Shown one piece after another: positions 1,345 to 27,565 of a stretch of DNA of 64,000 nucleotides. How positions within the stretch are numbered: position 1 is the stretch's first letter; each line of letters opens with the position of its first letter. The stretch is from Membranipora membranacea (taxonomy: Eukaryota; Bryozoa; Gymnolaemata; Cheilostomatida; Membraniporidae): positions 23,982,062 through 24,046,061 of the forward strand of contig OU612074.1 in NCBI GenBank assembly GCA_914767715.1, written 5' to 3'. The position numbers were made by a program, and so were the translations under genes. The notes under the pieces are model-generated. The model had not been told where the DNA came from. It saw only the letters and a program-made list of their open reading frames with translations, and searched no databases.

Positions 1345-1485
1345 CTCTCAGGTATCTCCGTTAGGTCACAATTGCTCAGCTCTAGCTTTTTGAGACACTT
1401 CAGATCCCCTATCCGGCTGGGTAAGGTATGAAGGTTCTTATTTCCAAATAAGTACAGCTCCTCTAGGTTTGTAAGTGATCCAATA
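1345..1485 (-). CDS. LRR exon A (most 3' in the window)
   Basis: A 141-nt, phase 2-2 exon encoding SIGSLTNLEELYLFG onward to NCDLTEIPER. Acceptor TTACAG and donor GTAAGTACAG are intact. Variable sites: residues 12 and 14 are Y and F, and residues 35-39 are LELSN. The gene must continue to the left of the window, because the exon leaves in phase 2 and no stop-bearing terminal exon is seen. Confidence 0.75.
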
Positions 1486-2437
1486 CTGTAATGAAAGTTA
1501 TTAGATCTGTCAGTATGTACCCAGTTTTAAAGGAGCAGCAAAGCAGAAGATAATACAACAGTGCACCAATCTAATAGCAAAGTACATATGCAGGTACTGA
1601 TCTTACTTTTGCAGGATAGGTGGTATTTAGTGACAATAAAACACATAATAAATAAATAAAGAAATAACAAATATGATGGAAAAAAGCTAATGTATAATAA
1701 CGTCAACTTGCAGTTCTTGAGACTGCAGCTATTATAAAGATCTATGTGATCTCAAACTGAGTTAAGAATTGGGTAATATATGATTAGATCATAACTTTGC
1801 ATTGTCATATACTTCGCATGGGCTATTCTTTCTTTGGGGAATCACAGAACCATCGTTCTGGCCAAAAAAACAAGAGTGATTTTTGGTGTTGATCAAAATT
1901 CAATCTACATAACATTTCTATCTCATTTAAATTAATATCTAGTGACCTTGAGGTCAGGTTATATATGGTTTAGTGGTTGTCTGCTCTGCAACTGTTATCA
2001 GGTCCAATCACAGCTGTATTGAGGATGACCCATAGGAAAAGAGCCAAGGTTTGGTGCTTTCTTATCCGCTTGATGACTCTATATCACCTATCATATTAAA
2101 TTAATTAGATACTGTGTAACACCCGACTGAGGCTGTTATGGTTCAGGTCATGTGATACAGGAGGCAGCAGCGGAAAATTTTGAGAGTGAACATCTTGATA
2201 CGACTATGAATCAGTTTAAACATGATATTCAGCTCTGTAGTGAATAATATTCTGTTCCAAAGAGCTGATTTCCTTACTGGCTATTCATTTAACATTTATA
2301 AATGGGTTGCCAGGGTTGTCTGTAACTTTAACAAGCACTATTTTATACCCGTCCTTTTAGCAGAATAATAATAAAAAAAAACTCAGCTAACATACCAGTA
2401 ACCAATTTTATGTTGCCAATCCAACAAAAGAAATATT

Positions 2438-2776
2438 CACTATGGTTCCATGGATCGATTATGTAAGGATTTCGGTAGTAATCGCCCCATGGAAATGGCA
2501 TTAAAGTCAAATTCCGATTGTGACGAATGACTTTATGGACGTGAATATCCGAACCGTGTTTATTCGACCTTATTACTAATTGGTGGCGTGGCTGAATGGT
2601 TAGCGGCGCTTGCACACAATGCCTTCACAGTGAGTTAACGCGGGAGGCCGGGTTCAAGTCTCGGCCGCGGCAGATCCTTTTCATGTTTTTCCCATCATGG
2701 GAATGGTTAGAATCCACTGAATTCTAACCATTCGAAATTGGAGTGAACCACAAAATTGACCCATGGAACCATAGTG
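2438..2776. mobile_element. CACTA-type MITE with internal tRNA-like module (copy 1)
   Basis: A 339-bp element bounded by perfect 16-bp inverted repeats, CACTATGGTTCCATGG, and flanked by a 3-bp direct repeat ATT. Sister LRR units have the uninterrupted site (AAATATTCTGTCG, e.g. 7728), which fixes both ends. A CACTA start and 3-bp target duplication are hallmarks of the En/Spm (CACTA) superfamily. The element is too short to encode a transposase. Inside are a tRNA-like sequence (about 2584-2673) and a hairpin (about 2697-2733). Confidence 0.75.
2584..2673 (+). other. tRNA-like sequence inside the MITE
   Basis: An A-box-like TGGCTGAATGG and a B-box-like GGTTCAAGTCT are spaced as in a tRNA with a long variable arm. 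The T-arm CCGGG-TTCAAGT-CTCGG can pair. The acceptor stem pairs poorly and no convincing anticodon arm is seen, so this is a tRNA-derived or pseudo-tRNA module rather than a functional gene. The copy at 16375-16459 has lost part of its T-arm. Confidence 0.5.
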
Positions 2777-4379
2777 ATTCTGTCGATCAATACCACTCAT
2801 GCATTTACCATCAGCCAAAAATCTTTATTTAGTAACTTCATTTATGCCAAACCAGTACAGTCTGTCCGCCCAGCTATTTTGAAAATTGGCACACCTCCGC
2901 GAGATAGCTTCAATCTATGTATGTATGTATGTATATGATGCTCAAATGATGGTGTGGGAGAGAAGTTATTCATCAGTTGAAATGAAGGTAAAGAACTGAC
3001 TTAGAACGCCAACCACCCTCTACCTTTTTTAAATTAGATTTAAGTCCCTGGCCAATTTACGAGATACGAAAATGATTTGCTTCCATAGACTTTACCTTTA
3101 GGTCTATTTTTGATACACAGCTTTCTAAGTATCCCTCGGAATATCGTCTCGGAAAAGATTGTATACACAAAAGGAGCCTAAGTTTCTTTAAATTATTTTG
3201 GTTGATTGATTATAGCTTGTAATTATACAACAAAATTTACCAAAAGCCATGAGGATCATTACACATTGGTAAGCTTAATTTTGTAGAGTGTTTTGTCAAT
3301 AACCTTCAAATTGTGTAGTGACAAGATCACTTTTGGGGAAATGTCTAGTCTCCACAATTTAGGTTCTGTTCATTGGTCTGTTATATATTTGGTTACGCTA
3401 TAAAATCCCACAGCGTTCATTGATCGGGACAGAACACTACTGATTTAAACTCGTGAGAAAGAGGCTAGAAAGACATGGAGATATCTAAAACTTGGGTGAC
3501 AAATATTCTGAGTCTCTACACTATTTTAAGTCCACTGACCAACTTAAGAATTAAAACTAAAGGCCTTCATTATTCCTGACTTCTCACCAAACTTACCCTT
3601 ACTCACTCTCCCCTATGTAACGAGGCAATTTTGTGTCATATTATAAACATTTCTGAATCTGAATTATTGTCATTACTTTCTAATGAATCAAGATTTCCCT
3701 TTTTACATTTCAAGAATTTAACAGTAGGGTCTAATGATCCGAAAACTTGTTAAACGAAAACAAAAGATAGCCATTCAATTATATGCACCTAGAAGTTGCA
3801 AGGCATTTAGTTATCTTTGGAGGAGCCATGTCCAAATCCCTTATCTCAGCTCTAAAAAAAGCTGTGTACTTTGGATTTCTTATATCTGTATGATGTGATG
3901 ATGCAGTTTAATAAAATTTTTTGTAGCCAACCAGTAATTGAATCAAACACCTGAGTACTAGCAGCTGGACTTAAATGGCTCTCTGTTGATTCTGTTTTAT
4001 GATGCCCTGTATATTGATTGCAGATTGTTTGAGTTACCGGAGCTTATTAGTTTATATTGTTGATTTTGTGTGTTTGATAATTGTGTGGATTTACATGTAG
4101 CAGACATTATTATGTAATGATTTTGAATTAACCTAAATTGTGCAGGCACTTAGTGTGCCTTCTTTGATGAATTGAGAGCAGAGCAGTGTTCGACTTGAGA
4201 GAGAGTGGACCTGCACCAGCGTGAATAAAGATCTTTTATCCTTTAAGTACGAGCTAGTGAATATGTAGAGAGCAATATATAAATGTTTTTAAGACTTTCA
4301 CCATGAACCTCCCTGCCTAAGACGGTGCGCCCTGCTCGACAGCACAGAGGTTGAGGAACATTAAAAGAAACAACCTTTA

Positions 4380-4775
4380 GTCGTTACATCCCCATATCTA
4401 TAATTAAAGAGTGAAGACATCGGATCATATCAGGTGTGATTATTATTATTATTTGGACGCCTAACTCTAAACTCTTATCTGATTTTATTTTTGACCTGAG
4501 CAAGACACATTTTAATAAGATAGCGAGTGATCGAGAACATCCCCTTTTTAGTAGAGTAATACGAAACAATAACAGAACATCCTCTTGCTTAAATACTACT
4601 TTCCGACCCAAGACCTGCAAGACTCAAAAACATGCCAAATCTTTTTCCCAACCTTGATGTCTTATTTTAACAACATACAACCTTAACCTTTCTTAGTCCA
4701 TATATTAATTAATGTACACATTCAATTTATCATTCTCATGATACCAAATGTACAAATAAACTGAAACTGAAACTG
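4380..4775 (+). mobile_element. LINE 3' end fragment (copy 1)
   Basis: A short open stretch (about 4454-4657: TPNSKLLSDFIFDLSK, later DREHPLFSRVIRN and KTQKHAKSFSQP) looks like the C-terminal tail of a CR1/L2-type ORF2 protein. It is followed by a tail ending in TGAAACTGAAACTG short repeats, as in many LINEs. The reverse transcriptase itself is not here. Copy 2 is at 18838-19233, and shorter pieces lie near 13440-13505 and 30160-30215. Confidence 0.45.
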
Positions 4776-4780
4776 TAGTG

Positions 4781-5066
4781 TGTGGTACGTCACAACAGTC
4801 ATACTTAATATGAGTTATTACACTAATAATCACACAGATAAGATGATGATCAAAATTCAGACCTAGATGGGTCTCGAACCCAGGTCCAAATGCAATGCAG
4901 GCAATGCCGCTGACGCTGAGCCTAGTGGCGCAATGGTAGCATCGTTGCCTGCAGGTATGTGGACCCAGATTCGAGTCCCAGCCAGGTCTAAATTTTGATC
5001 ATCATCTTATCTGTGTGATTATTAGTGTAATAACTCTTAAAAAGTATGACAGTTGTGACGTACCAC
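4781..5066. mobile_element. Long foldback MITE with two opposed tRNA-like modules (copy 1)
   Basis: A 286-bp near-palindrome. The arms begin TGTGGTACGTCACAAC and stay complementary for about 90 bp, with a perfect inner block around ATAATCACACAGATAAGATG. The right arm carries a plus-strand tRNA-like stretch (A-box-like TGGCGCAATGG, B-box-like ATTCGAGTCCC). The left arm carries the matching minus-strand B-box and T-arm (GGTTCGAGACC). Target duplication is not obvious. No ORF is present. Confidence 0.65.
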
Positions 5067-5235
5067 AGGGGAAACATCCGCTTATTCCCTATGCCGATTG
5101 AAGGTGATCACCCTGGAAGTTTGAGAGGCCATAACTTCCTCAATATCTGGATTCTTAAACTTGAATTCACTCATATGATAGAATAAAATATGGAGAATAA
5201 GATGTGATACAAAATAGCAGCCTCAAATTAAGTCT

Positions 5236-5402
5236 TTAATGGCAAGGCTGCAATGTCTGCGCCAGTTTTGTTCTCTGTTTGCAGGCAGATCAGAGCACAC
5301 CTGGGGGACAACCAAATCCTACTGCAGTTGGCCTCCAGGCGTGCTCCGACCTGCCTGCAAACAGAGAGCAAACTGGCAGAGACATTGCGGCCTTGCCATT
5401 AA
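5236..5402. mobile_element. Foldback MITE, 167 bp (copy 1)
   Basis: The inverted arms start TTAATGGCAAGGC and extend about 70 bp through TCTCTGTTTGCAGGCAG, with a short loop. The boundary could be read as TA|ATGG…CCAT|TA, i.e. a TA target duplication, but this is ambiguous because the termini are palindromic. Confidence 0.55.
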
Positions 5403-6640
5403 GGCAAAATAATTTTCGCCGCCCATGCTTCGGGATGTGGTGCGTGATATGACATCCGATTTTAATCAACCTTGAACCAGTTTTTCGTTGACATCGCCGG
5501 AACTTTGTCTGATATCAACCTCCAATCTGCTCTAACCGATCTACCATATGACAGTACACATTGCGCAAGTAAAACGCTGGCTGCGTAATATAGACACATC
5601 AAAGTCAACATGTGCATCAGACTTTCCCTCATAAGTCTCAAAGTATTGTTGTGAGGATTGGTGCATACCAATGTGGGATCTAAATAAACAAATGGACAGA
5701 AATGGTAGATGAAAAGAACTGTCACGCTGATCCTACTTTCTGGTTACTGTATATCGACTCACGGTCAACCAAGCACGGGACCATTGACAAGTATGGGGAT
5801 GACCTCACCAAAACACCCGAGGTCAGCAGTGCTGCTAGGGACTATAGATGATATTACCAACTGGTGTGATAACCACAATATGCCAGCCATTGCGATCGCA
5901 CATCATAGATCAGACTAAATTTCTGATCTGACGTAGAGAAAAGCGCCATACTGGTGGAATCTAGGGTGCCTGGTGACACAATGCCTATACAAAGGATATA
6001 ATTGAAAATAATTCCCAGTGGAAGTAGGCTTCCATGAAGATGCGGCTAGATCAGCTATCAATTTCGAGAATTGCGTTTTCAGACAAAGAACACAAACAAG
6101 CGATAAAAAGCGAGGTATAAGTACTAAACTGAGAGGAGTAAGTGATCAGCTCCTTGGGTACTCAGGGTATTAGGTAGAGTTGGGATTGTGGCTCCAATAC
6201 CCGCAAAAAAGATCACTCCCAAGGTGTCCTATAAAGATTTTCAGGCAAAAACAGAACGAAAATAGTAATTTTGCAGCCATTTGTTGATGGTCATAAGGGG
6301 ACGTTGTAGCGAACTTTAGATAGAACAGTTAAAACATCATATCATATAAACAAGGAATGGGACTTAAACTGCGTTTTTTAACAAAGTAGATTATGTTGTA
6401 TGACGGGGAGGAATTTTGAGTGTTGATGTAAATCAACATGATAATCTGAGGGGGGGGGGGAGGGGGTGGACTTTCTCAACTATCATTGAGATACCAATTG
6501 TGAAAAAAAAAAATTTTCACCTTAATACTACCCGATAAACAATTAATTAATCAATCAGATGGGTGCAGTTCTTATGAGTAAAGTAAAGGATTAATTTAGT
6601 TACAATAACAGTGTTTTGAAAACAACTATACTGTACTTAC

Positions 6641-6781
6641 CTCTCAGGTATCTCTGTTAGATCACAATCTCTCAGAATTAGCTTTTTGAGACACTTCAGA
6701 TCTCCTATCCGGCTGGGTAAGGTATGAAGGTTCTTATTTCCAAATAAGTACAGCTCCTCTAGGGTGGTAAGTGATCCAATA
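6641..6781 (-). CDS. LRR exon B
   Basis: A 141-nt, phase 2-2 exon with intact splice sites. Variable sites: residues 12 and 14 are Y and F, and residues 35-39 are LILRD. Residue 7 is T. It begins a run of three regularly spaced copies (B, C, D) with a period of about 2.03 kb. Confidence 0.75.
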
Positions 6782-8672
6782 CTGTAATGAAAGTTATTAG
6801 ATCTGTCAGTATGTACCCAGTTTTAAAGGAGCAGCAAAGCAGAAGATAATACAACAGTGCACCAATCTAATAGCAAAGTACATATGCAGGTACTGATCTT
6901 ACTTTTGCAGGATAGGTGGTATTCAGTGACAATAAAACACATAATAAATAAATAAAGAAATAACAAATATGATGGAAAAAAGCTAATGTATAATAACGTC
7001 AACTTGCAGTTCTTGAGACTGCAGCTATTATAAAGATCTATGTGATCTCAAACTGAGTTAAGAGTTGGGTAAAATATGATTAGATCATAACTTTGCATTG
7101 TCATATACTTCGCATGGGCTATTCTTTCTTTGGGGAATCACAGAACCATTGTTCTGGCCAAAAAAACAAGAGTGATTTTTGGTGTTGATCAAAATTCAAT
7201 CTACATAACATTTCTATCTCATTTAAATTAATATCTAGTGACCTTGAGGTCAGGTTATATATGGTTTAGTGGTTGTCTGCTCTGCAACTGTTATCAGGTC
7301 CAATCACAGCTGTATTGAGGATGACCCATAGGAAGAGAGCCAAGGTTTGGTGCTTTCTTATCCGCTTGATGACTCTATATCACGTATCATATTAAATTAA
7401 TTAGATACTGTGTAACACCCGACTGAGGCTGTTATGGTTCAGGTCATGTGATACAGGAGGCAGCAGCCGAAAATTTTGAGAGTGAACATCTTGAGACGAC
7501 TATGAATCAGTTTAAACTTGATATTCAGCTCTGTAGTGAATGATATTCTGATCCAAAGAGCTGATTTCCTTACTGGCTATTCATTTAACATTTATAAATG
7601 GGTTGCCAGGGTTGTCTGCTACTTTAACAAGCACTTTTTTATACCCGTCCTTTTAACAGAAAAATAATTAAAAAAAAACTCAGCTAACATACCAGTAACC
7701 AATTCCATGTTGCCAATCCAACAAAAGAAATATTCTGTCGATCAATACCACTCATGCGTTTACCAACAGCCAAAAATCTTTATTTAGTAACTTCATTTAT
7801 GCCAAACCAGTACAGTCTGTCCGCCCAACTATTATGAAAATTGGCACACCTCCGCGAGATAGCTTCAATCTATGTATGTATGTATGTATATGATGCTCAA
7901 ATAATGGTGTGAGAGAGAAGTTATTCATCAGTTGAAATGAAGCAACATGTTGTAGGTTTAAGTCCCTGGCCAATTTATGAGATACAAAAATGATTGGTTT
8001 CCATAGACTTTACCTTTAGGTCTATTTTTGATACACAGCTTCCTAAGTATCCCTCGGAATATCCTCTCGGAAAAGATTGTATACACAAAAGGAGCCTAAG
8101 GGTCTTCAAATTATTTTGGTTGATTGATTATAGCTTGTAATTATACAACAAAATTTACCAAAAGCCATGAGGATCATTACGCATTGGTAAGCTTAATTTT
8201 GTAGAGTGATTTGTCAATAACCTTCAAATTGCGTAGTGACAAGATAACTTGTGGAGAAATGTCTAGTCTCCACAATTCAGGTTCTGTCCATTGGTCTGTT
8301 ATATATTTGGTTATGCTATAAAATCCCACAGCGTTCATTGATCGGGACGGAAAACTACTGATTTAAACTCGTGAGAAAGAGGCTAGAAAGACATGGAGAT
8401 ATCTAAAACTTGGGTGACAAATATTTCGTTGTATGACAGGGAGGAATTTTGAGTGTTGATGTAAATCAACATGATAATCTGAGGGGGGGGAGGGGGTGGA
8501 CTTTCTCGACTATCATTGAGATACCACTTGTGAAAAAAAAAACATTTTCACCTTAATACTACCCGATAAACAACTTAATTAATCAATCAGATGGGTGCAG
8601 TTCTTATGAGTAAAATAAAGGATTAATTTAGTTACAATAACAGTGTTTTGAAAACAACTATACTGTACTTAC

Positions 8673-8813
8673 CTCTCAGGTATCTCTGTTAGATCACACT
8701 TTTGCGGATCTATCTTTTTGAGACACTTCAGATCCCCTATCCGGCTGGGTAAGGTATGAAGGTTCTTATTTCCATATAAGTACAGCTCCTCTAGGGTGGT
8801 AAGTGATCCAATA
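8673..8813 (-). CDS. LRR exon C
   Basis: A 141-nt, phase 2-2 exon with intact splice sites. Variable sites: residues 12 and 14 are Y and Y, and residues 35-39 are IDPQK. It is the most radical second strand in the set, with a proline at a normally hydrophobic core position (37). That could weaken the LRR fold or mark a relaxed copy, although the frame is open. Confidence 0.72.
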
Positions 8814-10703
8814 CTGTAATGAAAGTTATTAGATCTGTCAGTATGTACCCAGTTTTAAAGGAGCAGCAAAGCAGAAGATAATACAACAGTGCACCAATCT
8901 AATAGCAAAGTACATATGCAGGTACTGATCTTACTTTTGCAGGATAGGTGGTATTCAGTGACAATAAAACACATAATAAATAAATAAAGAAATAACAAAT
9001 ATGATGGAAAAAAGCTAATGTATAATAACGTCAACTTGCAGTTCTTGAGACTGCAGCTATTATAAAGATCTATGTGATCTCAAACTGAGTTAAGAGTTGG
9101 GTAAAATATGATTAGATCATAACTTTGCATTGTCATATACTTCGCATGGGCTATTCTTTCTTTGGGGAATCACAGAACCATTGTTCTGGCCAAAAAAACA
9201 GGAGCGATTTTTGGTGTTGATCAAAATTCAATCTACATAACATTTCTATCTCATTTAAATTAATATCTAGTGACCTTGAGGTCAGGTTATATATGGTTTA
9301 GTGGTTGTCTGCTCTGCAACTGTTATCAGGTCCAATCACAGCTGTATTGAGGATGACCCATAGGAAGAGAGCCAAGGTTTGGTGCTTTCTTATCCGCTTG
9401 ATGACTCTATATCACCTATCATATTAAATTAATTAGATACTGTGTAACACCCGACTGAGGCTGTTATGGCTCAGGTCATGTGATACAGGAGGCAGCAGCG
9501 GAAAATTTTGAGAGTGAACATCTTGATACGACTATGAATCAGTTTAAACTTGATATTCAGCTCTGTAGTGAATGATATTCTGTTCCAAAGAGCTGATTTC
9601 CTTACTGGCTATTCATTTAACATTTATAAATGGGTTGCCAGGGTTGTCTGCTACTTTAACAAGCATTATTTTATACCCGTCCTTTTAACAGAATAATAAT
9701 AAAAAAAAGACTCAGCTAACATACCAGTAACCAATTCCATGTTGCCAATCCAACAAAAGAAATATTCTGTCGATCAATACCACTCATGCGTTTACCATCA
9801 GCCAAAAATCTTTATTTAGTAACTTCATTTATGCCAAACCAGTACAGTCTGTCCGCCCAGCTATTTTGAAAATTGGCACACATCCGCGAGATAACTTCAA
9901 TCTATGTATGTATGTATGTATATGATGCTCAAATAATGGTGTGGGAGAGAAGTTATTCATCAGTTGAAATGAAGCAACATGTTGTAGGTTTAAGTCCCTG
10001 GCCAATTTATGAGATACAAAAATGATTGGCTTCCATAGACTTTACCTTTAGGTCTATTTTTGATACACAGCTTTCTAAGTATCCCTCGGAATATCCTCTC
10101 GGAAAAGATTGTATACACAAAAGGAGCCTAAGGGTCTTCAAATTATTTTGGTTGATTGATTATAGCTTGTAATTATACAACAAAATTTACCAAAAGCCAT
10201 GAGGATCATTACACATTGGTAAGCTTAATTTTGTAGAGTGATTTGTCAATAACCTTCAAATTGCGTAGTGACAAGATCACTTGTGGAGAAATGTCTAGTC
10301 TCCACAATTCAGGTTCTGTCCATTGGTCTGTTATATATTTGGTTATGCTATAAAATCCCACAGCGTTCATTGATCGGGACGGAAAACTACTGATTTAAAC
10401 TCGTGAGAAAGAGGCTAGAAAGACATGGAGATATCTAAAACTTGGGTGACAAATATTTCGTTGTATGACAGGGAGGAATTTTGAGTGTTGATGTAAATCA
10501 ACATGATAATCTGAGGGGGGGAGGGGGTGGACTTTCTCGATTATCATTGAGATACCAATTGTGAAAAAAAAAACATTTTCACCTTAATACTACCCGATAA
10601 ACAACATAATTAATCAATCAGATGGGTGCAGTTCTTATGAGTAAAATAAAGGATTAATTTAGTTACAATAACAGTGTTTTGAAAACAACTATACTGTACT
10701 TAC

Positions 10704-10844
10704 CTCTCAGGTATCTCTGTTAGATCACATTCTCTCAGAATTAGCTTTTTGAGACACTTCAGATCTCCTATCCGGCTGGGTAAGGTATGAAGGTTCTTAT
10801 TTCCAAATAAGCACAGCTCCTCTAGGGTGGTAAGTGATCCAATA
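10704..10844 (-). CDS. LRR exon D
   Basis: A 141-nt, phase 2-2 exon with intact splice sites. Variable sites: residues 12 and 14 are C and F, and residues 35-39 are LILRE. Its second strand differs from exon B by a single residue (E for D at 39). Confidence 0.75.
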
Positions 10845-12000
10845 CTGTAATGAAAGTTATTAGATCTGTCAGTATGTACCCAGTTTTAAAGGAGCAGCAA
10901 AGCAGAAGATAATACAACAGTGCACCAATCTAATAGCAAAGTACATATGCAGGTACTGATCTTACTTTTGCAGGATAGGTGGTATTCAGTGACAATAAAA
11001 CACATAATAAATAAATAAAGAAATAACAAATATGATGGAAAAAAGCTAATGTATAATAACGTCAACTTGCAGTTCTTGAGACTGCAGCTATTATAAAGAT
11101 CTATGTGATCTCAAACTGAGTTAAGAGTTGGGTAAAATATGATTAGATCATAACTTTGCATTGTCATATACTTCGCATGGGCTATTCTTTCTTTGGGGAA
11201 TCACAGAACCATTGTTCTGGCCAAAAAAACAGGAGCGATTTTTGGTGTTGATCAAAATTCAATCTACATAACATTTCTATCTCATTTAAATTAATATCTA
11301 GTGACCTTGAGGTCAGGTTATATATGGTTTAGTGGTTGTCTGCTCTGCAACTGTTATCAGGTCCAATCACAGCTGTATTGAGGATGACCCATAGGAAGAG
11401 AGCCAAGGTTTGGTGCTTTCTTATCCGCTTGATGACTCTATATCACCTATCATATTAAATTAATTAGATATTGTGTAACACCCGACTGAGGCTGTTATGG
11501 CTCAGGTCATGTGATACAGGAGGCAGCAGCGGAAAATTTTGAGAGTGAACATCTTGATACGACTATGAATCAGTTTAAACTTGATATTCAGCTCTGTAGT
11601 GAATGATATTCTGTTCCAAAGAGCTGATTTCCTTACTGGCTATTCATTTAACATTTATAAATGGGTTGCCAGGGTTGTCTGCTACTTTAACAAGCATTAT
11701 TTTATACCCGTCCTTTTAACAGAATAATAATAAAAAAAAAGTCAGCTAACATACCAGTAACCAATTCCATGTTGCCAATCCAACAAAAGAAATATTCTGT
11801 CGATCAATACCACTCATGCGTTTACCATCAGCCAAAAATCTTTATTTAGTAACTTCATTTATGCCAAACCAGTACAGTCTGTCCGCCCAGCTATTTTGAA
11901 AATTGGCACACATCCGCGAGATAGCTTCAATCTATGTATGTATGTATGTATATGATGCTCAAATAATGGTGTGGGAGAGAAGTTATTCATCAGTTGAAAT

Positions 12001-15121: not shown

Positions 15122-15262
15122 CTCTCAGTGATCTCTGTTAGATCACAATAGGTCAGATCTAGCTTTTTGAGACACTTCAGATCTCCTATCCGGCTGGGTA
15201 AGGTATGAAGGCTCTTATTTTCATATAAGCACAGCTCCTCTAGGGTGGTAAGTGATCCAATA
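15122..15262 (-). CDS. LRR exon E
   Basis: A 141-nt, phase 2-2 exon with two LRRs. Variable sites: residues 12 and 14 are C and Y, and residues 35-39 are LDLTY. Extra changes are G15E, N18S and P46T (…TEITER), and the bases after the donor GTAAGTAC differ from the other units. It is still open and spliceable. Its flanks are mosaic: the side with lower coordinates matches exon I's unit, and the side with higher coordinates matches exon A's unit. Confidence 0.72.
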
Positions 15263-16214: not shown

Positions 16215-16560
16215 CACTATGGTTCCATGGATCGATTATGTAAGGATTTCGGTAGTTATCGCCCCATGGAAATGGCATTAAAGAAATGGCATTAAAGTCA
16301 AATTCCGATTGTGACGAATGACTTTTTGGACGCGAATATCCAAACCGTGTTTATTCGTCCTTATTACTAATTGGCGGCGTGGCTGAATGGTTAGCGCGCT
16401 TGCACACAATGCCTTCAAAGTGAATTAACGCGGGAGGCCGGGTTCAAGCCGCGGCAGATTCTTTTCATGTTTTTCCCATCATGGGAATGGTTAGAATCCA
16501 CTGGATTCTAACCATTCGAAATTGGAGTGAACCACAAAATTGACCCATGGAACCATAGTG
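16215..16560. mobile_element. CACTA-type MITE with tRNA-like module (copy 2)
   Basis: The same element in the paralogous position of the exon E unit, 346 bp, same 16-bp termini and ATT duplication. A direct 18-bp repetition (AAATGGCATTAAAG region near 16267) and a short deletion in the tRNA-like T-arm distinguish it from copy 1. It arrived by segmental duplication, not by a second insertion. Confidence 0.75.
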
Positions 16561-18064
16561 ATTCTGTCGATCAATACCACTCATGCATTTACCATCAGCC
16601 AAAAATCTTTATTTAGTAACTTCATTTATGCCAAACCAGTACAGTCTGTCCGCCCAGCTATTTTGAAAATTGGCACACCTCCGCGAGATAGCTTCAATCT
16701 ATGTATGTATGTAAGTATATGATGCTCAAATAATGGAGTGGGAGAGAAGTTATTCATCAGTTGAAATGAAGGTAAAGAACTGACTTAGAACGCCAACCAC
16801 CCTCTACCTTTTTTAAATTAGATTTAAGTCCCTGGCCAATTTACGAGATACGAAAATGATTTGCTTCCATAGACTTTACCTTTAGGTCTATTTTTGATAC
16901 ACAGCTTTCTAAGTATCCCTCGGAATATCGTCTCGGAAAAGATTGTATACACAAAAGGAGCCTAAGTTTCTTTAAATTATTTTGGTTGATTGATTATAGC
17001 TTGTAATTATACAACAAAATTTACCAAAAGCCATGAGGATCATTACACATTGGTAAGCTTAATTTTGTAGAGTGTTTTGTCAATAACCTTCAAATTGTGT
17101 AGTGACAAGGTGACTTTTGGGGAAATGTCTAGTCTCCACAATTTCGGTTCTGTCCATTGGTCTGTTATATATTTGGTTATGCTATAAAATCCCACAGCGT
17201 TCATTGATCGGGACAGAAAACTACTGATTTAAACTCGTGAGAAAGAGGCTAGAAAGACATGGAGATATCTAAAACTTGGGTGACAAATATTCTGAGTCTC
17301 TACACTATTTTAAGTCCACTGACCAACTTAAGAATTAAAACTAAAGGCCTTCATTATTCCTGACTTCTCTTCAAACTTACCCTTACTCACTCTCCCCTAT
17401 GTAACGAGGCAATTTTGTGTCAACAGAATTCATTCCCATGAATTTTGATGGCGGCATATTATAAACATTTCTGAATCTGAATTATTGTCATTACTTTCTA
17501 ATGAATCAAGATTTCCCTTTTTACATTTCAAGAATTTAACAGTAGGTTCTAATGATCCGAAAACTTGTTAAACGAAAACAAAAGATAGCCATTCAATTAT
17601 ATGCACCTAGAAGTTGCAAGGCATTTAGTTATCTTTGGAGGAGCCATGTCCAAATCCCTTATCTCTGCTCTAAAAAAAGCTGTGTACTTTGGATTTCTTA
17701 TATCTGTATGATGTGATGATGCAGTTTAATAAAATTTTTTGTAGCCAACCAGTAATTGAATCAAACACCTGAGTACTAGCAGCTGGACTTAAATGGCTCT
17801 CTGTTGATTCTGTTTTATGATGCCCTGTATATTGATTCCAGATTGTTTGAGTTACCAGAGCTTATTAGTTTATATTGTTGATTTTGTGTGTTTGATAATT
17901 GTGCGGATTTACATGTAGCAGACATTATTATGTAATGATTTTGAATTAACCTAAATTGTGCAGGCACTTAGTGTGCCTTCTTTGATGAATTGAGAGCAGA
18001 GCAGTGTTCGACTTGAGAGAGAGTGGACCTGCACCAGCGTGAATAAAGATCTTTTATCCTTTAA

Positions 18065-18698
18065 AGAGGTAGGAATCGAAGGGGGTGCACGGGGATTTAT
18101 CATGTGAAGTGACAGGCAAGACCATTGGCTGATCAATGTAATTAGAGGCGGAGAATGGCCTTGGTCTCCGCCTCTAACAGCCAGTCCACGTTGCGTTCTC
18201 AAGTGGTCAAGTGTGTTATATAAGAAATTGTGATCCGCAGACACCCATAAATAAAGTTGAATAGAAGCTATGATATAGCTATTGTTGTGTTGGCTCATCA
18301 CACTTGGGATTATAGGGTTTAATTACAACGGTCAATTTCAATCTTGACAACGGTATCTAGGCAACCTCTAAAACCATAAATCATAACGTCAAAATTGACC
18401 AATAAGAGCTCGTATATTTTGAAGCGGATGATTTGAAATCATCGGAACTGGGCGATTTCGTATGACATCAGTCATATTTTCACCACTTTCCAATGCCATT
18501 ATTGGAATGAAAATTTATTGGGCATGTGTATCACACAATTCCGCATCAGCTTGTCTGATTCCCATTAAAAATAATTCACTGCTTCTCCTCTTAATTCCGA
18601 GAAAGCAGGAGGAATTTGAATGCTGCTAACCCCATTTGAATTTGATATGGCTGGGTGATCGCTTTACATTGACTGGCCCTTATATACCGGTCGAGGCA
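18065..18698. mobile_element. ~634-bp insertion, member of a dispersed repeat family
   Basis: The paralogous sequence near 4245 has a single CTTTAA. Here CTTTAA occurs on both sides of 634 bp of extra DNA, indicating a 5-6 bp target duplication. The first 100 bp (GGGGTGCACGGGG, then GTGACAGGCAAGACCATTGG) recur in inverse orientation at 63495-63580. No ORF or terminal inverted repeat is evident. The superfamily is unknown. Confidence 0.5.
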
Positions 18699-18837
18699 CT
18701 TTAAGTACGAGCTAGTGAATATGTAGACAGCATTATATAAATGTTTTTAAGACTTTCACCATGAACCTCCCTGCCTAAGACGGTGCGCCCCGCTCGACAG
18801 CACAGAGGTTGAGGAACATTAAAAGAAACAACCTTTA

Positions 18838-19233
18838 GTCGTTACATCCCAATATCTATAATTAAAGAGTGAAGACATCGGATCATATCAGGTGTGATTA
18901 TTATTATTATTTGGACGCCTAACTCTAAACTCTTATCTGATTTTATTTTTGACCTGAGCAAGAGACATTTTAATAAGATAGCGAGTGATCGAGAACATCC
19001 CCTTTTTAGTAGAGTAATACGAAACAATAACAGAACATCCTCTTGCTTAAATACTACTTTCCGACCCAAGACCTGCAAGACTCAAAAACATGCCAAATCT
19101 TTTTCCCAACCTTAATGTCTTATTTTAACAACATACAACCTTAACCTTTCTTAGTCCATATATTAATTAATGTACACATTCAATTTATCATTCTCATGAT
19201 ACCGAATGTACAAATAAACTGAAACTGAAACTG
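18838..19233 (+). mobile_element. LINE 3' end fragment (copy 2)
   Basis: Paralogue of 4380-4775 within the large duplication, differing by a few bases. Same C-terminal-like open stretch and TGAAACTGAAACTG tail. Confidence 0.45.
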
Positions 19234-19238
19234 TAGTG

Positions 19239-19525
19239 TGTGGTACGTCACAACAGTCATACTTAATATGAGTAATTACACTAATAATCACACAGATAAG
19301 ATGATGATCAAAATTCAGACCTAGATGGGTCTCGAACCCAGGTCCAAATGCAATGCAGGCAATGCCGCTGACGCTGAGCCTAGTGGCGCGATGGTAGCGT
19401 CGTTGCCTGCAGGTATGTGGACCCAGATTCGAGTCCCAGCCAGGTCTAAATTTTGATCATCATCTTATCTGTGTGATTATTAGTGTAATAACTCTTAAAA
19501 AGTATGACAGTTGTGACGTACCACA
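19239..19525. mobile_element. Long foldback MITE with two tRNA-like modules (copy 2)
   Basis: Paralogue of 4781-5066 carried by the large duplication, almost identical, with the same inverted arms and opposed tRNA-like modules. Confidence 0.65.
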
Positions 19526-19693
19526 GGGGAAACATCCGCTTATTCCCTATGCCGATTGAAGGTGATCACGCTGAAAGTTTGAGAGGCCATAACTTCCTCA
19601 ATATCTGGATTCTTAAACTTGAATTCGCTCATATGATAGAATAAAATATGGAGAATAAGATGTGATACAAAATAGCAGCCTCAAACTAAGTTT

Positions 19694-19859
19694 TTAATGG
19701 CAAGGCTGCAATGTCTGCGCCAGTTTTGCTCTCTGTTTGCAGGCAGATCAGAGCACACCTGGGGGACAACCAAATCCTACTGCAGTTGGCCTCCAGGCGT
19801 GCTCCGACCTGCCTGCAAACAGAGAGCAAACTGGCGGAGACATCGCGGCCTTGCCATTA
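19694..19859. mobile_element. Foldback MITE, 166 bp (copy 2)
   Basis: Paralogue of 5236-5402 in the duplicated segment, same long inverted arms. A short open frame across it is a by-product of the palindrome. Confidence 0.55.
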
Positions 19860-20193
19860 TGGCAAAATAATTTTCGCCGCCCATGCTTCGGGATGTGGCG
19901 CGTGATATGACATCCAATTTTAATCAACCTTGAACCAGTTTTTCGTTGACATCGCCGGAACTTTGTCTGATATCAACCTCCAATCTGCTCTAACCGATCT
20001 ACCATATGACAGTACACATTGCGCAAGTAAAACGCTGGCTGCGTAATATAGACACATCGAAGTCAACATGTGCATCAGACTTTCCCTCATAAGTCTCAAA
20101 GTTTTGTTGTGAGGATTGGTGCATACCAATGTGGGATCTAAATAAACAAATGGACAGAAATGGTAGATGAAAAGAACTGTCACGCTGATCCTA

Positions 20194-20480
20194 CCGCTTT
20201 CCTGGACATGTCAAAGGCTTTTGACAGAATGGAAAAATATAAAAGTAATAGAGAAGCACGCATCAAGAAAAGTTGACAAGAATCTAATCTCCATTGTGCA
20301 TGCTTCTTGGATGGCAGAGAGCGAAAAGTAAGGTTAGGCAACTCCATCAGCCTAACCTTGAAAACGAAAAATGGAACACCTCAGGGCACTCTCCTAGGAC
20401 CAATTTTCTGGTTACTGTATATCGACTCACGGTCAACCAAGCACGGGACCATTGACAAGTATGGGGATGACCTCACCAAA
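20194..20480 (+). pseudogene. LINE reverse transcriptase fragment
   Basis: Three reverse-transcriptase landmarks occur in order: FLDMSKAFDRM (motif A, about 20199), NGTPQGTLLGPIFWLLYID (motif B, about 20370-20426) and KYGDDLT (motif C, about 20457). A stop and frame change lie between A and B, so it is inactive. It belongs to a non-LTR element, judging from the TPQG and GDD/ADD motifs. The copy at about 5730-5840 retains only the part after motif B. Confidence 0.6.
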
Positions 20481-21308
20481 ACACCCAAGGTCAGCAGTGC
20501 TGCTAGGGACTATAGATGATATTACCAACTGGTGTGATAACCACAATGTGCCAGCCATTGCGATCGCACATCATAGATCAGACTAAATTTCTGATCTGAT
20601 GTAGAGAAAAGCGCCATACTGGTAGAATCTAGGGTGCCTGGTGACACAATGCCTATACAAAGGATATAATTGAAAATAATTCCCAGTGGAAGTAGGCTTC
20701 CATGAAGATGCGGCTAGATCAGCTATCAATTTCGAGAATTGCGTTTTCAGACAAAGAACACAAACAAGCGATAAAAAGCGAGGTATAAGTACTAAACTGA
20801 GAGGAGTAAGTGATCAGCTCCTTGGGTACTCAGGGTATTAGGTAGAGTTGGGATTGTGGCTCCAATACCCGCAAAAAAGATCACTCCCAAGGTGTCCTAT
20901 AAAGATTTTCAGGCAAAAACAGAACGAAAATAGTAATTTTGCAGCCATTTGTTTATGGTCATAACGGGACGTTGTAGCGAACTTTAGATAGAACAGTTAA
21001 AACATCATATCATATAAACAAGGAATGGGACTTAAACTGCGTTTTTTAACAAAGTAGATTATGTTGTATGACAGGGAGGAATTTTGAGTGTTGATGTAAA
21101 TCAACATGATAATCTGAGGGGGGGGGGAGGGGGTGGACTTTCTCAACTATCATTGAGATACCAATTGTGAAAAAAAAAATTTTTCACCTTAATACTACCC
21201 GATAAACAACTTAATTAATCAATCAGATGGGTGCAGTTCTTATGAGTAAAATAAAGGATTAATTTAGTTACAATAACAGTGTTTTGAAAACAACTATACT
21301 GTACTTAC

Positions 21309-21449
21309 CTCTCAGGTATCTCTGTTAGATCACAATGTCTCAGATCTAGCTTTTTGAGACACTTCAGATCCCCTATCCGGCTGGGTAAGGTATGAAGGTT
21401 CTTATTTCCATTTAAGTCCAGCTCCTCTAGGTTTGTAAGTGATCCAATA
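21309..21449 (-). CDS. LRR exon F
   Basis: A 141-nt, phase 2-2 exon with two LRRs, acceptor TTACAG and donor GTAAGTACAG. Variable sites: residues 12 and 14 are D and N, and residues 35-39 are LDLRH. Residue 7 is N, shared only with exons A and G. The D-L-N strand in the first LRR is unique to F and G. Confidence 0.75.
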
Positions 21450-22638
21450 CTGTAATGAAAGTTATGAGATCTGTCAGTACGTACCCAGTTTTAAAGGAGC
21501 AGCAAAGCAGAAGATAATACAACAGTGCACCAATCTAATAGCAAAGTACATATGCAGGTACTGATCTTACTTTTGCAGGATAGGTGGTATTCAGTGACAA
21601 TAAAACACATAATAAATAAATAAAGAAATAACAAATATGATGGAAAAAAGCTAATGTATAATAACGTCAACTTGCAGTTCTTGAGACTGAAGCTATTATA
21701 AAGATCTATGTGATCTCAAACTGAGTTAAGAGTTTGGTAAAATATGATTAGATCATAACTTTGCATTGTCATATACTTCGCATGGGCTATTCTTTCTTTG
21801 GGGAATCACAGAACCATTGTTCTGGCCAAAAAAACAAGAGTGATTTTTGGTGTTGATCAAAATTCAATCTACATAACATTTCTATCTCATTTAAATTAAT
21901 ATCTAGTGACCTTGAGGTCAGGTTATATATGGTTTAGTGGTTGTCTGTTCTGCAACTGTTATCAGGTCCAATCACAGCTGTATTGAGGATGACCCATAGG
22001 AAAAGAGCCAAGGTTTGGTGCTTTCTTATCCGCTTGATGACTCTATATCACCTATCATATTAAATTAATTAGATACTGTGTAACACCCGACTGAGGCTGT
22101 TATGGTTCAGGTCATGTGATACAGGAGGCAGCAGCGGAAAATTTTGAGAGTGAACATCTTGAGACGACTATGAATCAGTTTAAACTTGATATTCAGCTCT
22201 GTAGTGAATGATATTCTGTTCCAAAGAGCTGATTTCCTTACTGGCTATTCATTTAACATTTATAAATGGGTTGCCAGGGTTGTCTGCTACTTTAACAAGC
22301 ACTTTTTTATACCCGTCCTTTTAACGGAAAAATAATTTTAAAAAAACTCAGCTAACATACCAGTAACCAATTCCATGTTGCCAATCCAACAAAAGAAATA
22401 TTCTGTCGATCAATACCACTCATGCGTTTACCATCAGCCAAAAATCTTTATTTAGTAACTTCATTTATGCCAAACCAGTACAGTCTGTCCGCCCAACTAT
22501 TATGAAAATTGGCACACCTTAATACTACCCGATAAACAACTTAATTAATCAATCAGATGGGTGCAGTTCTTATGAGTAAAATAAAGGATTAATTTAGTTA
22601 CAATAACAGTGTTTTGAAAACAACTATACTGTACTTAC

Positions 22639-22779
22639 CTCTCAGGTATCTCTGTTAGATCACAATGTCTCAGATCTAGCTTTTTGAGACACTTCAGATC
22701 CCCTATCCGGCTGGGTAAGGTATGAAGGTTCTTATTTCCATTTAAGTCCAGCTCCTCTAGGTTTGTAAGTGATCCAATA
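22639..22779 (-). CDS. LRR exon G (copy of exon F)
   Basis: A 141-nt, phase 2-2 exon, identical in sequence to exon F located 1330 bp away. Variable sites: residues 12 and 14 are D and N, and residues 35-39 are LDLRH. Residue 7 is N. The surrounding 1.33 kb differs from the F unit at only about two positions by eye, so this is a very recent tandem duplication, or an assembly duplication. Confidence 0.72.
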
Positions 22780-24676
22780 CTGTAATGAAAGTTATGAGAT
22801 CTGTCAGTACGTACCCAGTTTTAAAGGAGCAGCAAAGCAGAAGATAATACAACAGTGCACCAATCTAATAGCAAAGTACATATGCAGGTACTGATCTTAC
22901 TTTTGCAGGATAGGTGGTATTCAGTGACAATAAAACACATAATAAATAAATAAAGAAATAACAAATATGATGGAAAAAAGCTAATGTATAATAACGTCAA
23001 CTTGCAGTTCTTGAGACTGAAGCTATTATAAAGATCTATGTGATCTCAAACTGAGTTAAGAGTTTGGTAAAATATGATTAGATCATAACTTTGCATTGTC
23101 ATATACTTCGCATGGGCTATTCTTTCTTTGGGGAATCACAGAACCATTGTTCTGGCCAAAAAAACAAGAGTGATTTTTGGTGTTGATCAAAATTCAATCT
23201 ACATAACATTTCTATCTCATTTAAATTAATATCTAGTGACCTTGAGGTCAGGTTATATATGGTTTAGTGGTTGTCTGCTCTGCAACTGTTATCAGGTCCA
23301 ATCACAGCTGTATTGAGGATGACCCATAGGAAAAGAGCCAAGGTTTGGTGCTTTCTTATCCGCTTGATGACTCTATATCACCTATCATATTAAATTAATT
23401 AGATACTGTGTAACACCCGACTGAGGCTGTTATGGTTCAGGTCATGTGATACAGGAGGCAGCAGCGGAAAATTTTGAGAGTGAACATCTTGAGACGACTA
23501 TGAATCAGTTTAAACTTGATATTCAGCTCTGTAGTGAATGATATTCTGTTCCAAAGAGCTGATTTCCTTACTGGCTATTCATTTAACATTTATAAATGGG
23601 TTGCCAGGGTTGTCTGCTACTTTAACAAGCACTTTTTTATACCCGTCCTTTTAACGGAAAAATAATTTAAAAAAAACTCAGCTAACATACCAGTAACCAA
23701 TTCCATGTTGCCAATCCAACAAAAGAAATATTCTGTCGATCAATACCACTCATGCGTTTACCATCAGCCAAAAATCTTTATTTAGTAACTTCATTTATGC
23801 CAAACCAGTACAGTCTGTCCGCCCAACTATTATGAAAATTGGCACACCTCCGCGAGATAGCTTCAATCTATGATACATGTATGTATGTATGTATATGATG
23901 CTCAAATAATGGTGTGGGAGAGAAGTTATTCATCAGTTGAAATGAAGCAACATGTTGTAGGTTTAAGTCCCTGGCCAATTTATGAGATACAAAAATGATT
24001 GGCTTCCATAGACTTTAACTTTAGGTCTATTTTTGATACACAGCTTTATAAGTATCCCTCGGAATATCCTCTCGGAAAAGATTGTATACACAAAAGGAGC
24101 CTAAGGGTCTTCAAATTATTTTGGTTGATTGATTATAGCTTGTAATTATACAACAAAATTTACCAAAAGCCATGAGGATCATTACACATTGGTAAGCTTA
24201 ATTTTGTAGAGTGATTTGTCAATAACCTTCAAATTGCGTAGTGACAAGATCACTTGTGGAGAAACGTCTAGTCTCCACAATTCAGGTTCTGTCCATTGGT
24301 CTGTTATATATTTGGTTATGCTATAAAATCCCACAGCGTTCATCGATCGGGACGGAAAACTACTGATTTAAACTCGTGAGAAAGAGGCTAGAAAGACATG
24401 GAGATATCTAAATCTCGGGTGACGAATATTTCGTTGTATGACAGGGAGGAATTTTGAGTGTTGATGTAAAACAACATGATAATCTGAGGGGGGGAGGGGG
24501 TGGACTTTCTCGACTATCATTGAGATACCAATTGTGAAAAAAAAAACATTTTCACCTTAATACTACCCGATAAACAACTTAATTAATCAATCAGATGGGT
24601 GCAGTTCTTATGAGTAAAATAAAGGATTATTTTAGTTACAATAACAGTGTTTTGAAAACAACTATACTGTACTTAC

Positions 24677-24817
24677 CTCTCAGGTATCTCCGTTAGGTCA
24701 CAATAGTCCAGATCTAGCTTTTTGAGACACTTCAGATCCCCTATCCGGCTGGGTAAGGTATGAAGGTTCTTATTTCCAAATAAGTACAGCTCCTCTAGGG
24801 TGGTAAGTGATCCAATA
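24677..24817 (-). CDS. LRR exon H
   Basis: A 141-nt, phase 2-2 exon with two LRRs and intact splice signals. Variable sites: residues 12 and 14 are Y and F, and residues 35-39 are LDLDY. Residue 7 is T. The rest of the exon matches the consensus (GNKNLHTLPSRIGDLKCLKK, then CDLTEIPER). Its intron unit is cut short at about 25879, where it abuts a foldback MITE. Confidence 0.75.
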
Positions 24818-25879
24818 CTGTAATGAAAGTTATTAGATCTGTCAGTATGTACCCAGTTTTAAAGGAGCAGCAAAGCAGAAGATAATACAACAGTGCACCA
24901 ATCTAATAGCAAAGTACATATGCAGGTACTGATCTTACTTTTGCAGGATAGGTGGTATTCAGTGACAATAAAACACATAATAAATAAATAAAGAAATAAC
25001 AAATATGATGGAAAAAAGCTAATGTATAATAACGTCAACTTGCAGTTCTTGAGACTGCAGCTATTACAAAGATCTATGTGATCTCAAACTGAGTTGAGAG
25101 TTGGGTAAAATATGATTAGATCATAACTTTGCATTGTCATATACTTCGCATGGGCTATTCTTTCTTTGGGGAATCATAGAACCATTGTTCTGGCCAAAAA
25201 AACAGGAGCGATTTTTGGTGTTGATCAAAATTCAATCTACATAACATTTCTATCTCATTTAAATTAATATCTAGTGACCTTGAGGTCAGGTTATATATGG
25301 TTTAGTGGTTGTCTGCTCTGCAACTGTTATCAGGTCCAATCACAGCTGTATTGAGGATGACCCATAGGAAGAGAGCCAAGGTTTGGTGCTTTCTTATCCG
25401 CTTGACGACTCTATATCACCTATCATATTAAATTAATTAGATACTGTGTAACACCCGACTGAGGCTGTTATGGTTCAGGTCATGTGATACAGGAGGCAGC
25501 AGCGGAAAATTTTGAGAGTGAACATCTTGATACGACTATGAATCAGTTTAAACTTGATATTCAGCTCTGTAGTGAATGATATTCTGTTCCAAAGAGCTGA
25601 TTTCCTTACTGGCTATTCATTTAACATTTATAAATGGGTTGCCAGGGTTGTCTGCTACTTTAACAAGCATTATTTTATACCCGTCCTTTTAACAGAACAA
25701 ACATAAAAAAAAAATCAGCTAACATACCAGTAACCAATTCCATGTTGCCAATCCAACAAAAGAAATATTCTGTCGATCAAGTCCACTCATGCGTTTACCA
25801 TCGGCCAAAAATCTTTATTTAGTAACTTCATTTATGCCAAACCAGTACAGTCTGTCCGCCAAGCTATTTTGAAAATTGG

Positions 25880-25967
25880 TGGTAGAGGCATCTTGCACTA
25901 TCAACTACTGGTGGCTGATAGTGAAATGCCTCTACCAGCATCTTGCACCGTTTGAGCACTTAAACTA
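25880..25967. mobile_element. Truncated foldback MITE at a duplication breakpoint
   Basis: The right arm and part of the left arm of the 13574 family, missing its left terminus. The left edge is exactly where the exon H unit stops (GAAAATTGG), so recombination probably occurred in or next to this element. Confidence 0.55.
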
Positions 25968-27340
25968 GCGATTAGTGTGAAATGTAAGATCTTCTGATTT
26001 TTCTGATTTGATAAAGTTTTTTTGTTCGAAATTGAATTTGCTATAAGGTCCTTTAGCCTGTTTACATTAGTTATTTTCACTTAGAACATTAGAACATTAG
26101 TACATCAGTTTCCCATCGTCTCATCATAGCTGCATTATTAGGTGGTTGTAAATATCTGAGTCAGATGATGTCTTTGATATCTTTTGCTAGTATAATATAA
26201 ATTGCCACCATCATGATACCATACCAGCCAGTGGAAAATCGCTACTAGTAGAAATAGTATTATCATATAGTTGAAATATTTTGTTCACTGATGAATGGGA
26301 TACATTTTTGGAACTAAGCCCATTTTATTTTTGCAGGGAAGAACTTTAGTCACTGACTCATACACAGAGACATCATAACTCCCTTCATTGGCCTGACGTC
26401 ATATAACCTGAATGTTTGTATTATATAGTTAACCTTCATATATCTGTATCGAGTGACCAGAAAATTAAATCTCCTAAATCGTATTTCAAATTTCTAATGA
26501 TGTTGGAAAACGCAGAGCTTTCAAAGCACAACCAAATTCACTCTCATCTGCCTTATGGCTGCCTTTGTGTCGATAAAAAGTCCTCGAGTTTTCCTTTTTA
26601 GGCAGTACCGGTGAATATGATATTTGTTTTTTTGCTGTTTCTTGGAGGGGAAACTAGTAACCAGAATGAATAATACCAAATGTTTCTTTTCCAAACCTTT
26701 AAAATGGCTTGGACATAAATTTATCAACCATTTGTGGCGATAGTGATGATTTATAATATCACTTATACACTACACAAAGACCATTACATATTGTTGTTAC
26801 AAATGGTAAAGGAATTATGTAAGATTTGCATGTTGGTAAATTTCATTGCTCTACAGCACTTGCATTAGTGATGTTGGAACGAGTGCCACCCATAAGGGAA
26901 GCTATCTCTCAATTTAATCAATTTTTACTTCTCAGGTATCCGTTTTAGCAGCATCCTGATTGAAACCAGCCCTGAACCATTTTTAGGCCTCTCACTTATT
27001 AACCAGATTTAATTTATAGTAAAAGGAACTTTCAGCTATACTCCCTTCCCTCACCCATTTATACACAAAAATTGATCCTAAAACATCATATAGCTATTGA
27101 CTCCTCAGTAAAATTATATAAACACTTAAACATCTACGCACATACACCTATACAGACACACACAGTGTTCATGCAAATCAACATGAAAAACTGAGGATTG
27201 ATATCGATGAAATCTCAGGTGGTGGAGCAAAGATAATATATAATTTCCCTGAAGGACACTCTAACCACAAACAACATAAAATAATTTTATGACCTTATTA
27301 TTACCAGGCAAACTACCTAATTAATCAATGGGATGGGTGG
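25967..27340. repeat. Intron block shared with 13690-15070
   Basis: About 1.4 kb nearly identical to the block preceding exon E. It contains the relic exon end. Nothing coding is otherwise seen. Confidence 0.8.
26929..26952 (-). pseudogene. Relic of an LRR exon 3' end (second copy)
   Basis: The same degenerate remnant as at 14635, within the duplicated intron block. The short match to the exon end is the only evidence. Confidence 0.33.
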
Positions 27341-27424
27341 GGGGGGGGAGTGTGCTTATGACTACAATAAGGTAATAATTCAATTACAATAACTGTATTT
27401 TGAATAGAGCTATACTGTACTTAC

Positions 27425-27565
27425 CTCTCAGGTATCTCTGTTAGATCACAACTTGTTACATTTAGCTTTTTGAGACACTTCAAATCTGATATCCTGCTGG
27501 GTAAGGTATGAAGGTTCTTATTTCCATATAAGTACAGCTCCTCTAGGGTGGTAAGTGATCCAATA
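27425..27565 (-). CDS. LRR exon I (nearest to the gene's 5' end)
   Basis: A 141-nt, phase 2-2 exon encoding 47 residues, i.e. two LRRs of the LPxxIGxLxxLxxL type. Acceptor TTACAG and donor GTAAGTACAG are intact. Variable sites: residues 12 and 14 are Y and Y, and residues 35-39 are LNVTS. Residue 27 is S where all other copies have G, and the exon has more silent and replacement differences than its sisters, so it looks like the oldest-diverged copy. Its downstream flank (28736-30401) matches that of exon D, and its upstream flank matches that of exon E. The exon joins exon 3 in phase, giving …DPLE-N-IGSLTTLEEL. Confidence 0.75.

Follow-up and report, generated by a model that had tools for sequence, protein, structure and literature searches.

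The stretch of DNA analysed here (the window, 64,000 nucleotides) comprises C10:23982062-24046061 in the 339-Mb assembly of Membranipora membranacea, and lies on chromosome 10 (C10). It carries, on the minus strand, a series of short exons encoding leucine-rich repeats (LRRs). Bryozoans are colonial and epibiotic, and Membranipora membranacea is a colonial cheilostome bryozoan. The original prediction, made from the sequence, described nine minus-strand exons of 141 nt, each encoding two LRRs; all nine were recovered, every one is open, and their splice sites match. The acceptor side of all nine is ctttcattacag, the donor is gtaagt, and the phase is 2 at both ends, so that each exon adds 47 residues (two LRRs). 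Three of the window exons, when joined, match Pfam LRR_4, LRR_8 and others. The residues originally listed as differing between the exons were read correctly, in a numbering that starts at the splice-split Ser codon (AG/T); residues 12, 14 and 35-39 there are 11, 13 and 34-38 in the present numbering. The introns had been called nearly invariant, which is true of a homologous block around each exon, reaching about 1 kb on the upstream side and 0.1-0.25 kb on the downstream side, but not beyond it. The spacing between exons in the window is 1.3-6.2 kb, insertions included.

The window does hold nine such exons, but the bank is larger than the nine described, with at least 40 matches over 0.57 Mb. 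In a search of the genome, the best 40 of 64 candidates were all on the minus strand of C10, between 23.705 and 24.280 Mb. The nine exons are part of one of seven tandem units (numbered as genes where they need to be told apart) that together span about 0.6 Mb. Seven ROC-COR exons, all on the minus strand at C10 23.69-24.24 Mb, are interspersed with the LRR clusters, and the idea that all 0.57 Mb of the bank feed a single giant gene with one constant end was therefore rejected. In every one of the seven units the LRR exons are followed, in the direction of transcription and without change of strand, by ROC-COR and caspase exons, the nearest caspase p20 exon being no more than 6 kb downstream of ROC-COR (7/7 units). 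One more caspase exon, the eighth, stands at 23814677 without a nearby ROC match among the matches listed. The coordinates of the window exons, and of the exons assigned to the same gene outside the window, are collected in Table 1.

Table 1. Exons of the window gene and neighbouring LRR exons. Positions are those of the window unless marked C10.
Feature	Position	Strand	Remarks
LRR exon YFG/ESN	1345..1485	-	ninth (last) in transcription order
LRR exon YFG/IRD	6641..6781	-	
LRR exon YYG/DQK	8673..8813	-	framework altered (IDPQK)
LRR exon CFG/IRE	10704..10844	-	
LRR exon CYE/DTY	15122..15262	-	
LRR exon DNG/DRH	21309..21449	-	
LRR exon DNG/DRH	22639..22779	-	sequence identical to exon 21309
LRR exon YFG/DDY	24677..24817	-	
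LRR exon YYG/NTS	27425..27565	-	opens the series in transcription order
Tenth LRR exon of window gene	C10 23977423		
ROC-COR exon of window gene	C10 23964054-23965994	-	open over its length; first base continues phase 2
Caspase exon of window gene	C10 23962073-23962312		p20 match
Predicted N-terminal cap exon N2	34031..34253	-	223 nt; acttacag/AG...AA/gtgagt; phase 2 end like LRR exons
Predicted exon N1	35731..36462	-	donor phase 1 fits N2
Opposite-strand divergent LRR exons	56712..59747	+	one intact (59607-59747), three degenerate (56712, 57459, 59091)

The long open exon downstream of the LRR exons has Roc and weak COR-A matches, and the caspase exons then follow. In gene 2 the Pfam Roc match (E 2.3e-5, 25 bits) falls short of the Pfam cut-off of 27, and the COR-A match is weak (E 0.008, 16.5 bits against a cut-off of 35.3). 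Roco chains in the PDB were matched at E 7e-8, and Foldseek alignments of a modelled homolog, P0024 (see below), cover 500-770 columns of ROC-COR proteins, with the COR-only chain 3dpt matched at 9e-9. The 698-aa constant open reading frame (ORF) of gene 2 matches only Roc and COR-A in Pfam, with no NACHT or NB-ARC domain found in it. Two gene-2 exons match Peptidase_C14 above the Pfam cut-off (E 1.6e-12). The translations of genes 1, 2 and 5 contain SHGDEG and QACAG, which we take to be the caspase His and Cys motifs, the activity being predicted. ROC-COR is under purifying selection, with ratios of nonsynonymous to synonymous differences (pN/pS) of 0.31 (genes 1 and 2), 0.31 (genes 2 and 5) and 0.63 (genes 1 and 5).

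Two further exons, N1 and N2, are predicted upstream of the LRR series. The N2 frame is a 79-aa ORF of equal length in the window gene and genes 1 and 2. It resembles the N-termini of several proteins of the bryozoan Watersipora subatra, and with the N-terminal end of one of them, P0047, it shares 34% identity (E 1.4e-10, in a database of ten sequences). The phases of the LRR, N2 and ROC exons are continuous, N2 ending and ROC beginning in phase 2. N1 contains a 102-bp tandem repeat at 35842-36462, with 6.1 copies of 34 aa each, and genes 1 and 2 have about one copy; since the copy number differs between genes, the length of the N-terminus may vary. Between copies, pN/pS of the N1/N2 exons is 0.4 to 1.7, which gives no clear coding signature, and their coding status therefore rests on frame, phase and homology. 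A death-fold domain, guessed by eye in N2, was rejected, as Pfam returned no families for N2 or N1 at E values up to 1. The interval 30600-31400 was discarded as a 5′ exon, its three-copy alignment having no common open frame. A 26-bp minisatellite at window positions 36636-37835 adjoins N1, and the same repeat lies at the matching place in gene 1 (C10 23722254-23723511).

The differences between the LRR exons are concentrated in six codons (11, 13, 14, 35, 37 and 38), which correspond to the x positions of the LxLxx strand in both LRRs and make up 18 nt; they are referred to here as hot codons. Such clustering had been predicted, and 14 of the 30 variable sites among the 138 exon sites of the nine exons fall inside these 18 nt (hypergeometric p 5e-8). 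The six-codon mask ranks first among its 46 circular shifts, with the next shift not far behind (0.340 vs 0.284). Comparison of exons with introns gave the expected contrast. Over the 36 pairs, the introns (500 nt upstream plus 90 nt downstream of the exon) differ by a mean of 2.6% and a median of 1.7%, the six codons by 34%, and the remaining exon by 3.9%; hot-codon divergence exceeds intron divergence in 35 of the 36 pairs. The proposal that strand and turn residues of the concave face are under diversifying selection is supported by a pN/pS of 4.6 at the hot codons and 0.25 at the other codons of the nine exons.

The same pattern holds outside the window. Thirty-eight further exons, independent of the choice of hot codons, gave pN/pS values of 2.93 at the hot codons and 0.29 elsewhere, and the mask again ranked 1/46. 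For the C10 array as a whole, a set of 47 exons was used, of which 35 remained from 44 exon matches after removal of nine (five diverged or degenerate on the minus strand and four on the plus strand in the window), the rest coming from 14 further exons less one of 135 nt and one duplicate locus. All 47 are open; their pairwise diversity (pi) is 0.404 for the hot codons against 0.046 for the remaining ones, and their pN/pS 3.20 against 0.28. In 60 bootstrap resamplings (48 exons, one duplicate locus still included) the ranges were 2.76-4.34 for hot and 0.22-0.32 for cold codons. Across the 47 units, codon 11 occurs as eight codons encoding eight amino acids and codon 13 as seven encoding seven, all stop-free, while codons 37 and 38 encode ten amino acids each, with zero stops. 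In the nine window exons, the synonymous difference (pS) at the other codons, 0.092, exceeds the intron divergence of 0.026. The exon alleles thus seem to be of greater age than the sequence around them, which is what selection maintaining exon variants would produce alongside homogenisation of the flanks.

The 47 units draw on 22 LRR1 and 25 LRR2 motifs, combined in 35 ways, and all four gametes were seen in 18 of 55 tested site pairs (35 units). Motif sharing was set aside as proof of conversion, as several common motifs sit similarly in genes 2 and 5 and the sharing may reflect whole-gene duplication; exchange is therefore argued from divergence. Between genes 2 and 5, the flanks of LRR units differ by a median of 2.2% and a minimum of 0.2% (150 pairs), close to the within-gene values of 3.2% (gene 2) and 2.1% (gene 5), while the ROC-COR exons of the same two genes have a pS of 0.61. 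LRR units thus appear to move between genes; such close units in genes with old ROC-COR exons are most simply explained by intergenic crossing over or conversion. Of the targeted gene conversion raised in the original prediction, the exchange is made likely in this way, but the targeting is not shown, because the framework is near-identical and a tract of almost any length would expose mainly the hot codons.

Related genes occur elsewhere in the genome and in Watersipora subatra. A paralogous cluster on chromosome 1 (C1) has 22/22 LRR exons open, the set being 22 of 24 matches in 31.50-32.04 Mb (31522162 and 31524601 left out). In the Watersipora gene models, 27 units in five groups differ within groups by 58% at the hot positions and 18% at the others, with a pooled rank of 1/46, and four of the groups individually rank 1/46 for the six-codon mask; four P0047 units stand outside this grouping. 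The six-codon focus is thus a family trait, most pronounced in the C10 array. The Watersipora models join 2 to 7 LRR units to ROC-COR, and several include a caspase as well, so that caspase and LRR-ROC-COR are seen within one gene model in this species. Watersipora P0028 has a full C14 match (E 1.4e-36) and caspase-9/CED-3 matches. The models carry the name 'MFHAS1 homolog'. The ROC-caspase region of Watersipora matched 22 proteins, of which 13 are from Watersipora and one is a fish MFHAS1 with a marginal score.

Structure predictions come from homologs of the window protein. The model of an LRR-ROC-COR protein, P0024, has a predicted local distance difference test score (pLDDT) of 81.8, and its best Foldseek matches are LRRK1 (E 7e-26), Chlorobium Roco (E 1.5e-21) and LRRK2. 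In the model of Watersipora P0054 (pLDDT 80.0), each of the 12 predicted strands in its six units occupies unit residues 9-11 or 33-35. This places residues 11 and 35 in the strand and 13, 14, 37 and 38 in the following turn, consistent with the predicted location of the variable residues on the concave face. According to an excerpt of PMC3138743, the concave strand/turn face of LRR proteins is often ligand-binding.

Genome-wide, at least 64 ROC-COR matches (the best of 252 candidates) are found on C1, C3, C5, C10 and C11, and at least 150 caspase p20 matches (the best of 259 candidates), none of the 150 having an internal stop. A caspase match lies within 6 kb of 45 of the 64 listed ROC copies, where pairing was judged by distance irrespective of caspase strand (55 of the 150 caspase rows by script, 95 by eye). 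On C3, ROC-COR clusters occur at 14.5, 18.9-19.4 and 25.6-26.1 Mb, nearly all copies being without a caspase within 6 kb among the matches listed, and their output domain may be different from a caspase. On C8, C9, C5 and C11 there are many caspase p20 matches far from every ROC copy among the matches listed; these may be ROC-less, or members with more diverged ROC exons.

The sequence evidence makes it likely that the exons code for self-contained sensors of danger or non-self, in a large family that diversifies rapidly. The explanation we favour, and consider probable, is a Roco-based, NLR-like sensor family in which the ligand face is under diversifying selection while exchange homogenises the remainder. 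Splicing of each gene would join N1-N2-(LRR exon)n-ROC/COR-caspase in a single intracellular protein, the ten LRR exons of the window gene giving about 20 LRRs. The variable strand and turn residues would be the binding site for molecules of pathogens or of non-self, whose binding would alter the GTPase state and dimerisation of ROC and activate the caspase, leading to cell death or inflammatory signalling; the ROC switch and caspase output steps are taken from what is known of Roco proteins and caspases. Diversity would arise from germline tandem duplication, unequal crossing over and gene conversion, together with selection for new faces. In a bolder extension, two-LRR cassettes of the germline bank would be traded between neighbouring Roco-caspase genes, so that the ligand face of these single-protein cell-death receptors would be rebuilt again and again, the repertoire forming both an immune and a histocompatibility (fusion or rejection) code, possibly diversified between zooids or cells; we regard this as speculative and on the whole unlikely.

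Several observations weigh against the favoured explanation. The focus is weaker in the C1 cluster, where pi is 0.348 at hot codons vs 0.114 and the mask ranks 3/46; pN/pS there is 1.44 at hot vs 0.92 at other codons, and codons 16, 29, 40 and 43 vary equally, loop codons being variable too. Watersipora group P0044 lacks the focus (rank 14/46), and Watersipora positions 16 and 40 vary as much as the six hot ones. The values of pN/pS are pairwise, on recombining units, and so are no formal site test. Exons were assigned to genes by position, a start codon was not located for N1/N2, and N2 pN/pS between copies is 0.8-1.7, which is no proof of coding. Among the matches listed, 19 of the 64 ROC copies, mostly on C3, have no caspase exon within 6 kb. 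Most unit flanks of genes 6 and 7 differ and are unalignable beyond about 120 nt, and exchange was therefore judged on genes 1, 2 and 5.

Two alternatives have a small chance of being correct, much the same for each. In a Dscam-like bank, alternative splicing would select one LRR exon, or a chosen subset, per transcript, giving many receptors per locus. Any subset of the nine exons would stay in frame because they share splice sites and phase 2-2, and the end of N2 and the start of ROC are in the same phase. Each 141-nt unit is, however, two complete LRRs, so that concatenation lengthens the solenoid with no need of choice, and the Watersipora models place multiple units in one protein. The other alternative accepts the same selection, but has the receptors serve colony allorecognition (fusion or rejection) rather than microbial defence. 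The colonial habit of bryozoans is in keeping with this, as is the diversity of a clustered family, which suits self/non-self typing, and an excerpt of the Bugula neritina genome paper (PMC7576161) gives only weak similarities to Alr1. Against it, no membrane or secreted part is visible in the predicted protein (no signal peptide search was made), the large, dispersed family is more NLR-like, and there is no linked fusion phenotype. No paper linking allorecognition with leucine-rich repeats in bryozoa was found in a limited literature search.

The six codons might instead be written by a targeted mutator or by a templated process, whether VLR-like copying or retroelement-like mutagenesis, which we judge very unlikely. 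In its favour, the adjacent 2.03-kb repeats at 8673 and 10704 differ at 11 of 141 exon sites (ten within codons 11, 13 and 34-38) and at 8 of the 18 hot nucleotides, while 15 of 1882 intron columns differ and none between -625 and +97. The rank correlation between hot and flank divergence is also low (0.20). Yet the interleaved framework codons 10, 12, 15, 34 and 39 barely change, synonymous changes included (3 of 235 cells variant in the 47 units, two of the three synonymous), and pS at the hot codons (0.08-0.16) is near that at other codons (0.09-0.10). All four bases (T, G, C and A) serve as starting points of the changes at hot sites, and A-only mutagenesis of the retroelement type was rejected on this ground. 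A decaying array, with neutral mutation in unconstrained duplicated DNA, would fit the tandem duplications and insertions common at the locus, the degenerate exons and the near-unity pN/pS of C1 outside the hot codons, but is scarcely credible given open frames in every exon of the C10 and C1 sets, no stops in the listed caspase matches, and purifying selection both outside the hot codons and in ROC-COR.

A Roco-based sensor family would share with Roco proteins (LRRK1/2, MFHAS1 and bacterial LRR-ROC-COR) the order of LRR, ROC GTPase and, as predicted, COR. It differs in having a C-terminal caspase in place of a kinase, and in its LRRs, which are made of repeated 141-nt, phase 2-2 exons, in dozens of copies with hypervariable strand residues. 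The comparison with NLRs made in the original prediction holds as an analogy. Plant NLR clusters such as RPP8 are alike in their clustered paralogs, intergenic exchange and selected LRR diversity, and for RPP8 both exchange and balancing selection are needed for the observed diversity, according to an excerpt of PMC6771003. The bryozoan genes differ from NLRs by a Roc-matching switch instead of NB-ARC, an attached protease domain, and one exon per two LRRs. The comparison with lamprey VLRs, the other system suggested, is not supported. VLR genes are incomplete in the germline and are built up somatically from LRR cassettes, and they encode secreted or GPI-anchored LRR proteins with Cys-rich caps. 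VLRs also carry hypervariable residues on the LRR strands (excerpt of PMC3138743), but the bryozoan exons have ordinary, intact splice sites, which argue for ordinary splicing, and belong to genes with exons for an intracellular-type GTPase and a caspase. With respect to Dscam, whose exon clusters are arrays of interchangeable in-frame exons, the likeness is in that interchangeability and the difference is that the bryozoan unit is a complete, concatenable LRR pair.

If this explanation is true, the family would be what plant NLR clusters are, but in an animal, with a Roco GTPase as its base and a caspase attached; judging by the ROC and caspase exon matches, its size would allow it to act as a main system of recognition in the phylum. 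Because of the exon architecture, the ligand face would be readable directly from genomic DNA; the typing of colonies could therefore use six codons in each unit, and the types be compared with the outcome of infection or fusion.

The LRR exons on the opposite strand of the window probably lie outside the window gene. Among the best 64 of 252 candidates, no ROC match was found on the plus strand of C10 at 24.04-24.42 Mb, and these exons therefore look like orphans or pseudogenes. Structured RNA and tRNA were rejected for the window, Rfam giving no matches at the gathering threshold and ARAGORN none. Transposon-like ORFs are present at window positions 42810-45864 and 50580-51586, presumably a Gypsy-like and a Harbinger-like one to judge by the sequence, and at 60109-63492 about 162 copies of a 21-bp unit form a satellite array.

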